NCBI GenBank assembly: GCA_019459455.1
Contig: JAIBEX010000021.1
Coordinates: 407,576-471,575, forward strand
Direction of reading: 5' to 3'
DNA length: 64,000 nt
Source of the DNA: Weeksellaceae bacterium
Lineage (GTDB): Bacteria > Bacteroidota > Bacteroidia > Flavobacteriales > Weeksellaceae
The notes under the pieces are model-generated. The model was not told the origin of the DNA and ran no database searches. It saw nothing but the letters and a program-made list of their open reading frames with translations. Position numbers and translations under genes: made by a program. Shown piece by piece: positions 60,087 to 63,644 of this stretch. Every line of letters starts with the position of its first letter. Positions within the stretch are counted from its first letter, which is position 1.

Positions 60087-61148
60087 ATGGTTTTAAGGGG
60101 AGAAAATTTAGTCAAGGAATACGGGCCGAAAAAAGTGGTTAAGGGTGTTTCTGTGGAAGTTGCACAGGGCGAAATCGTTGGGCTCCTGGGACCAAACGGT
60201 GCCGGAAAAACCACTTCTTTCTATATGATCGTTGGTTTGGTAAAGCCTACGGCAGGAAAGATCTTCCTGGACAACAAGGAAATCACGACGGATGCCATGT
60301 ACCGGCGTGCGCAGAAGGGCATCGGCTATCTGGCGCAGGAAGCCTCCGTTTTCCGTAAACTCTCCGTAGAAGAAAACATTTTGGGCGTCCTGCAACTCAC
60401 CAATCTATCCAAACGCGCACAGCAAATTAAATGCGACGAACTGATTGAGGAGTTTTCCCTGCAGCATGTCCGCAAAAACCGGGGGGATCTCCTTTCGGGA
60501 GGTGAAAGACGGCGTACTGAAATCGCGAGATGTCTGGCCACCAGTCCGAATTTTATTTTGTTGGATGAGCCTTTCGCCGGAGTGGACCCGATTGCTGTGG
60601 AGGATATCCAGAAAATTGTAAGGAGTCTGGTTGATAAGAACATCGGTATCCTGATCACCGATCACAACGTTCAGCAAACACTGGCCATCACGCATAAAAC
60701 CTATATCATGTTTGAAGGAAAGATCCTGAAAGAGGGACTTCCACATGATCTGGCAAACGATCCCCAGGTCCGTGAGGCCTATCTGGGGGAGAATTTCGTG
60801 TATCAGGATATCCTGAACAGAGAACATAAGAAATCGTACGTATACAACATCTGGGCTGGAAATTTTGATTCCAAGGGTGAGTTCCAGAGCTTCGTAGACC
60901 AGAATTTTAAGGACCAGGATAACCTGCGGCTCATGCACGGGTTTGAGGACATCAGTTTTGCTTCCCTGGCCAATTCCGAAATTGAACACATCTTCAATGA
61001 TGTGGTGGATAAAGGCGCAAACAACTCTTTTCTTTTCCAGAAAAAGGAACTGACTTCCCGTTATCCGCTCGAGCTGGCAGAATCTGATTCCAAGGTCGCA
61101 AGCCGTCCCGAACTCCACTATTTAACGAGCTACCGCTACCAGGCTTAG
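60087..61148 (+). CDS. lptB: LPS export ATPase LptB with extra C-terminal domain
   Basis: ABC ATPase powering transport of lipopolysaccharide from the inner membrane by LptFG. The core (1-242) has Walker A GPNGAGKT (35-42), signature LLSGGERRR (135-143) and Walker B ILLDEP (157-162), and ends at REAYLGENF as standard LptB proteins do. A further 111 residues (243-353; bases 60813-61145) follow in frame: SYVYNIWAGNFDSKGEFQSF onward, acidic and resembling Imm22-like domains. The start is ATG 60087, the conserved MVLRGENLVK; the frame opens earlier at 60036 but that part is before the promoter box. An ABC exporter gene follows on the same strand. Confidence 0.93.
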   Translation: MVLRGENLVKEYGPKKVVKGVSVEVAQGEIVGLLGPNGAGKTTSFYMIVGLVKPTAGKIFLDNKEITTDAMYRRAQKGIGYLAQEASVFRKLSVEENILGVLQLTNLSKRAQQIKCDELIEEFSLQHVRKNRGDLLSGGERRRTEIARCLATSPNFILLDEPFAGVDPIAVEDIQKIVRSLVDKNIGILITDHNVQQTLAITHKTYIMFEGKILKEGLPHDLANDPQVREAYLGENFVYQDILNREHKKSYVYNIWAGNFDSKGEFQSFVDQNFKDQDNLRLMHGFEDISFASLANSEIEHIFNDVVDKGANNSFLFQKKELTSRYPLELAESDSKVASRPELHYLTSYRYQA

Positions 61149-63068: not shown

Positions 63069-63644
63069 ATGAAGAATAAAGTGATGATGGTCATGGCAAC
63101 CGCCCTGTTGGTTTCCTGCCAGAAAATAGAGGAAAGTGTAAGCAGTGTCGTGACCGATACCAAAGAGAAAGTTCAGCAGAAAGCGATGGAAACCGTTCAG
63201 GAAACCGTTGCCGAACAGATGGGTAAGGTGGTTAATGCAGAAAACGTACGCTTCGACAGCATCTTTCCAAATCAGAATACCCTGGTGCTGGAAAATGAAA
63301 TCGGCAAAAAAGTGGCGTTCCCGAACGGTACCCCTTTCTATGTTTTCAAATATAAGACAGCTGATAAAGAAGTACTGCTGAAATCGCTGGTAGCGCAACC
63401 TACGGCGAATGAAGCACAGTCCACAAAGGAATACAGCAAGGTTGACGGAGCTTCTATCATCGAGAAGATTACGTTCTTTGAGAAGTTTCTTCCGGGAAAC
63501 ACAATCGATACCAGCTTCCTGGATGACATTAAGAATGACAGGAATGTAGAATACTACAAGGTGAAGCGTTTTCCGAATGCCAGCACCGTTATTTACAATC
63601 CAAGGACCCAGATGGTCTATCATTTCGTGGAAGTGAAGAAATAG
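63069..63644 (+). CDS. Lipoprotein, unknown function
   Basis: Protein of 191 residues. The signal sequence ends in the lipobox LVSC near residue 17. Residues about 20-60 form an amphipathic helix (EESVSSVVTDTKEKVQQKAMETVQ) like those of small envelope-stress or late-embryogenesis-like lipoproteins; the rest is an alpha/beta domain without known motif. It lies 40 nt after the ABC exporter gene. Confidence 0.8.
   Translation: MKNKVMMVMATALLVSCQKIEESVSSVVTDTKEKVQQKAMETVQETVAEQMGKVVNAENVRFDSIFPNQNTLVLENEIGKKVAFPNGTPFYVFKYKTADKEVLLKSLVAQPTANEAQSTKEYSKVDGASIIEKITFFEKFLPGNTIDTSFLDDIKNDRNVEYYKVKRFPNASTVIYNPRTQMVYHFVEVKK

Follow-up and report, generated by a model that had tools for sequence, protein, structure and literature searches.

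A C-terminal accessory domain on LptB in Weeksellaceae, likely a distant relative of DUF4284/Imm22

LptB and the layout of the fused gene

LptB, an ATPase that is essential and serves as an antibiotic target, has a C-terminus that is tied tightly to dimer turnover in Escherichia coli (PMC6703430). As set out in that source, the C-terminal region of the E. coli protein (residues 230-241) is essential, its C-terminal loop governs dimerisation and turnover, and R198 is contacted in both monomers by the L241 carboxylate. E. coli LptB is impaired by C-terminal extensions, either one of 34 residues or tags (PMC6703430). Other ABC ATPases carry C-terminal domains of 15-125 residues that, according to the accounts in PMC7367683 and PMC10710835, are generally thought to be regulatory. 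A small extra C-terminal domain or extension is found on the ATPase in the case of the ferredoxin-like C2 domain of MetN, the TOBE domains of MalK and ModC, and the C-terminal extension of MlaF (PMC7367683, PMC10710835).

An lptB gene with such an addition was found in the window, i.e., the whole stretch of 64,000 nucleotides from a Weeksellaceae bacterium that was analysed. Its coding sequence on the plus strand (60087-61148, with ATG at 60087 and the stop codon ending at 61148) encodes a protein of 353 amino acids, in which an LptB core is joined to a further domain at its C-terminus. The product matched the family model TIGR04406 with 354.6 bits (cut-off 240), over model positions 2-238 of 239 and residues 3-238. 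This match and the alignments delimit an LptB core of residues 1-237 (60087-60797), which ends with LGENF and matches the whole family model as well as the solved LptBs of LptB2FGC (6MBN, 6MJP), the alignments to solved structures reaching residues 237-240. The solved proteins stop near residue 241, whereas the lptB product has 111-116 residues more. Residue F237 is presumed to be the equivalent of E. coli F239, based on an alignment to the E. coli sequence. This numbering agrees with PMC6703430, and the E. coli C-terminal residues Y234, L235, G236 and F239 (Y232, L233, G234 and F237 here) did not vary among the 27 tailed and 19 tail-less LptBs of the family that were compared.

The core is followed by VYQDI (residues 238-242; 60798-60812), which extends the C-terminal loop and of which V, Y, Q and I were invariant in all 104 tailed proteins examined. 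Next come a short basic linker (residues 243-250; 60813-60836), delimited by comparison of tailed proteins, and an accessory domain of about 100 residues (residues 251-353; 60837-61145), backed by a structure prediction, a weak PF14112 match and dN/dS values. The lptB product is a normal LptB with a genuine added C-terminal domain. The initial annotation had given the 111-residue in-frame tail (residues 243-353; 60813-61145) exactly, but the motif REAYLGENF, which it had placed at residue 242, ends at residue 237 instead.

The source genome yielded one LptB match at E <= 1e-75, the fused protein itself (10 of the 32 candidates scored), so that this protein must serve the essential function; a role in LPS export is predicted for it. 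A second, unfused LptB was rejected on the same single match. Two matches to LptF/LptG genes were retrieved in this genome. The genes around lptB comprise hemB, a TM2 gene, an ABC exporter gene, one gene that matched no Pfam family, and a cobalamin adenosyltransferase gene. Between the latter and the ABC exporter, a 191-amino-acid ORF (63069-63641) had no Pfam match at E <= 0.001, and its start resembles a lipoprotein signal by eye.

Distribution, constraint and apparent loss of the tail

The tail was surveyed in 197 evenly drawn Weeksellaceae genomes, 192 of which had an LptB match at E <= 1e-75. This match extended into the tail in 106 of the 192, and the remaining 86 ranked below every tailed match among the matches listed. 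Hence, many Weeksellaceae LptBs are without the tail, and a fusion peculiar to the window was ruled out by its wide occurrence across the family. At least one tailed genome was present in 15 of the 31 family genera, one genus (g23) being mixed, with a tail in one of six sampled genomes (G115). The tail also occurred in all 80 named loci (72 of Chryseobacterium and eight of Kaistella), although these were the best 80 of 190 relatives found with the fused protein as query and are biased towards tailed genes. Of the LptB genes in tail-less genomes, 25 were retrieved, 22 of them belonging to 17 genera of the family and three to outgroup families. A length of 242 amino acids, which the initial annotation took as the LptB standard, was exact in 18 of these 25, the others having 243-258. 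No LptB match was found in five of the 197 genomes (G009, G015, G071, G110 and G129), probably due to missing sequence, as completeness is 80-83% in four of these, and the G071 draft comprises about 190 contigs.

The source genome contained the tail domain at a single place. A profile of 24 tails gave strong matches in eight of 395 Bacteroidota genomes, every one belonging to the Weeksellaceae; ten further genomes of the phylum matched at E 0.0135 to 0.1, which was taken for chance. Plasmids and phages gave no match. Weak matches at E 0.02-0.9 were viewed roughly through the plus-strand ORFs at the centres of their loci, although several of these loci lie on the other strand.

The tail is under purifying selection and clearly constrained. 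Across 183 pairs with moderate dS among 81 genes, pairs beyond the dS limits being dropped, the tail had a median dN/dS of 0.053 (5-95%: 0.020-0.089; maximum 0.118), as against 0.007 in the core, values that are rough since the pairs are non-independent and filtered on dS, and the tail dS is high (median 0.89). The rate of evolution is thus several-fold higher in the tail than in the core. A chance or read-through ORF was ruled out by these values and the conservation of the tail. Over 60087-61145, the median dS of the tail (0.89) was nearly twice that of the core (0.49) in the pairs compared, perhaps due to stronger silent-site conservation of the core. As for single residues, V238, Y239, Q240, I242, Y253, G258 and F260 were invariant in all 98 proteins of 353 amino acids, most of which are from Chryseobacterium, and W256 was present in 103 of 104 tails. 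The core and loop columns that best discriminated tailed from tail-less proteins (238, 230, 241, 240, 239 and 227) all lie beside the fusion point.

The codon for Q196 (60672-60674), in the switch helix, aligns with R198 of E. coli LptB, and the solved LptBs aligned have R there. This position was Q in 27 of 27 tailed LptBs compared. Among the 19 tail-less LptBs of the family, 16 had Q and three had S, and of the three outgroups two had Q and one had S. A contact between R198 and the terminal carboxylate is impossible in the fused protein, because the chain continues and the position is occupied by Q. Since Q or S also occurs in tail-less and outgroup LptBs, the change most simply predates the tail and may have made it possible; on these alignments, the constraint of this contact would most simply have gone before the tail arrived. 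E. coli LptB1 and His-tagged LptB are likewise longer than the natural end; however, as described in PMC6703430, these are a frameshift product or unselected tags and are impaired, whereas the tail is natural and conserved.

Three tail-less genera bear traces of an apparent loss. Their LptBs (G019 of g17, G005 of g3 and G017 of g15) end with NFVYQD(I/F), as the loop of tailed proteins does, and are identical to tailed proteins in columns 238-241, whereas 16 of the 19 other tail-less family LptBs end with (R/K)(F/Y)EK(I/F/Y). This makes a strong, if not airtight, case for scars of tail loss in which the linker or loop was kept, given that an outgroup LptB (G038) has a V-Y loop too, although with VYKKIERE instead of VYQD. 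In G019, the lptB frame continues past the linker into the first part of a cobalamin adenosyltransferase-like gene, and in the window the gene for this enzyme starts about 2.6 kb past the lptB stop. In G017 (L226), broken pieces resembling a decayed cobalamin adenosyltransferase gene were seen by eye 3' of the stop of the shortened lptB, as if the stretch deleted in G019 had been deleted there too and had then decayed. As a short LptB apparently suffices in these three genera, the domain is dispensable at least there.

On the rpoB tree, the distribution of the tail needs seven changes, at least three of which are forced by well-supported branches. On the LptB-core tree, the tailed G115 adjoins tail-less g10, g19 and g33, and constraining the tailed and scarred genes to one clade gave a p-AU of 0.06. 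In the rpoB+rpoC FastTree, tail-less g6 and g8 fall inside tailed genera with mixed support. As the trees yield no single tailed clade, the tail may have had one origin or several, and its distribution may reflect subsequent loss, a replaced 3' end or lateral transfer.

Resemblance to DUF4284/Imm22 and predicted fold

The Imm22-like identity proposed in the initial annotation stood in part. Indeed, PF14112 (DUF4284, Immunity protein 22) was the only recurrent Pfam match of the tails, found in 16 of 24 scanned at E <= 10 and in none of nine shuffled tails; other families gave scattered single matches (ten families in one or two of the 24 members). However, the tail of the window scored 18.1 bits and the best match among the 24 tails had an E value of 0.0053 with 18 bits, so that the gathering cut-off of 27 was reached by none. 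An hhalign comparison of 41 tails with 15 free-standing DUF4284 sequences from relatives gave a probability of 86.6% over 77 columns; with 17 DUF4284 sequences, the match shrank to 21 columns at 76.9%. The score with this wider set (35.1) was reached neither by any of 200 column permutations (maximum 25.6) nor by the reversed alignment (12.2). The firm part covers about 21 columns, namely the first strand and helix; W256 aligns with the invariant W of DUF4284. The acidic D53, D55 and E58 of DUF4284 stand opposite non-acidic or unaligned tail residues, in a weak part of the alignment.

The structure prediction agrees with a folded domain. AlphaFold2, run as a single-chain tail model on 24 aligned tails out of 41 non-redundant ones, gave one compact domain (mean pLDDT 78.4, pTM 0.66), so that the tail is predicted to be folded rather than disordered. 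The order of elements is strand-helix-strand-helix-helix-strand-helix-strand, which we read as ferredoxin-like with an extra helix; this predicted order would suit the ferredoxin-like fold described for MetN C2 (PMC7367683, PMC10710835). A DUF4284 protein modelled at pLDDT 70.8 shows its main elements in a similar order; it has an insert following helix 1 and lacks the helix that the tail model shows between the last two strands. Structure searches returned common folds only, with no MetN or MalK chain among the matches listed. Foldseek gave no PDB match at E <= 0.001, and the best VIA match had a Z of 6.4 (102 residues at rmsd 6.7; 98 at 4.1), with ACT domains (Z about 6), ribosomal protein S6 and many unrelated chains tied within 1 of it. 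PDB sequence searches gave nothing convincing with the tail and no solved member with DUF4284.

Taken as a comparison with the family described in PMC3482391, the tail shares the opening IWxGNFxSxxxFxxFV, the W and G that are conserved, and a similar predicted order of elements, but differs by its score below the cut-off, acidic positions that are not kept, its fusion to LptB instead of a free-standing state, and the additional helix. The tail and DUF4284/Imm22 are likely distant kin, a relationship in which the alignment is firm in the first strand and helix alone and does not amount to family membership.

Free-standing DUF4284 genes scoring above the cut-off were present in 15 of 196 genomes of the order, 14 of these belonging to g20. 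In all three g20 loci inspected (L330 3944-4342, L331 6300-6698 and L333 6030-6428), they lie near a large ORF, which by eye we take to be a DNA polymerase I. This ORF directly adjoins the DUF4284 gene in L331 and L333, with one small ORF between them in L330, and a PAAR-like or DUF4280-looking ORF was seen by eye past it in L331 and L333. In G651 (L332 5561-6061 and 6213-6614), the DUF4284 gene adjoins an ORF that by eye presumably encodes an immunity protein of the SUKH (SMI1/KNR4) type, as would suit an immunity locus.

Possible roles of the accessory domain

With moderate confidence, we favour the tail being a genuine clade-specific accessory domain of LptB, probably derived from a DUF4284/Imm22-like domain, and likely a module that regulates or tethers on the cytoplasmic side, below the LptB dimer. 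It would have been gained inside the Weeksellaceae, and it is placed directly after the C-terminal helix and loop that control dimer closure and turnover in E. coli. Its spread over 15 genera, its low dN/dS, the compact predicted fold, the single LptB match of the source genome and the discriminating columns beside the fusion point speak for this reading; the three apparent losses, the faster evolution relative to the core, the lack of an outstanding PDB match and LptF/LptG lengths unrelated to the tail by eye speak against it. As it continues from these dimer-controlling elements, two tails could meet below the NBD dimer and shift the balance between its open and closed states, either by themselves or upon binding of a ligand or partner, like the C-terminal domains of MetN and MalK. 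By this analogy, the domain is probably regulatory, and we infer its position in the dimer, its regulation and the signal. MetN C2 and the MalK/ModC domains belong to importers, whereas the tail sits on an LPS exporter. Moreover, the MetN C2 family (NIL/ACT-like) was absent among the hmmscan matches of 24 tails at E up to 10, and the TOBE family was absent among their Pfam matches.

A possible but doubtful alternative is that the domain stays outside the ATPase cycle and brings a cytoplasmic partner to the exporter, for instance an enzyme of LPS synthesis or a protease adaptor. A domain that is predicted to be folded, is constrained, sits on a short linker and is kin to a protein-binding immunity family would suit such recruitment, but no candidate partner was found, and, inspected by eye, the lengths of LptF and LptG did not obviously vary with the tail. 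Slightly less probable is a tolerated passenger, accidentally fused after the loss of the R198 contact, which folds and is kept mainly since its removal needs a deletion. The Q or S at the R198 position in all 19 tail-less family LptBs, the three apparent losses and the faster evolution of the tail are consistent with this. In contrast, a dN/dS well under 1 in all 183 pairs argues against it, although a folding constraint alone could also lower this ratio, as does retention of the tail in 15 genera. An extended form of the favoured regulatory reading appears equally unlikely, in which a domesticated toxin-immunity-type domain serves as a clamp: the R198 contact would have been lost, the fusion accepted, and the domain would then control dimer opening, resulting in regulated LPS export, unlike in E. 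coli. Lastly, a domain that still binds a toxin or shields LptB from one is very improbable: the distant DUF4284/Imm22 resemblance and the free-standing DUF4284 genes of relatives speak for it, but the acidic positions are replaced in the aligned tail, the domain is single-copy and fixed in most tailed genera, and no toxin was found among the lptB neighbours, so that an immunity function is unlikely and protection of LPS export has little support.

Regulation of LPS export by the tail, as in the favoured reading of a module under the dimer, is plausible. A literature search of open-licence PMC papers (LptB extension, Imm22, DUF4284) returned no prior description of such a tail domain in titles or abstracts. 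If regulatory, it would to our knowledge be without precedent on LptB. The occurrence of a domain, predicted to be folded, at the turnover-linked C-terminus of LptB throughout a large clade, together with three genera that have apparently lost it, represents a natural experiment on how LPS export is tuned.
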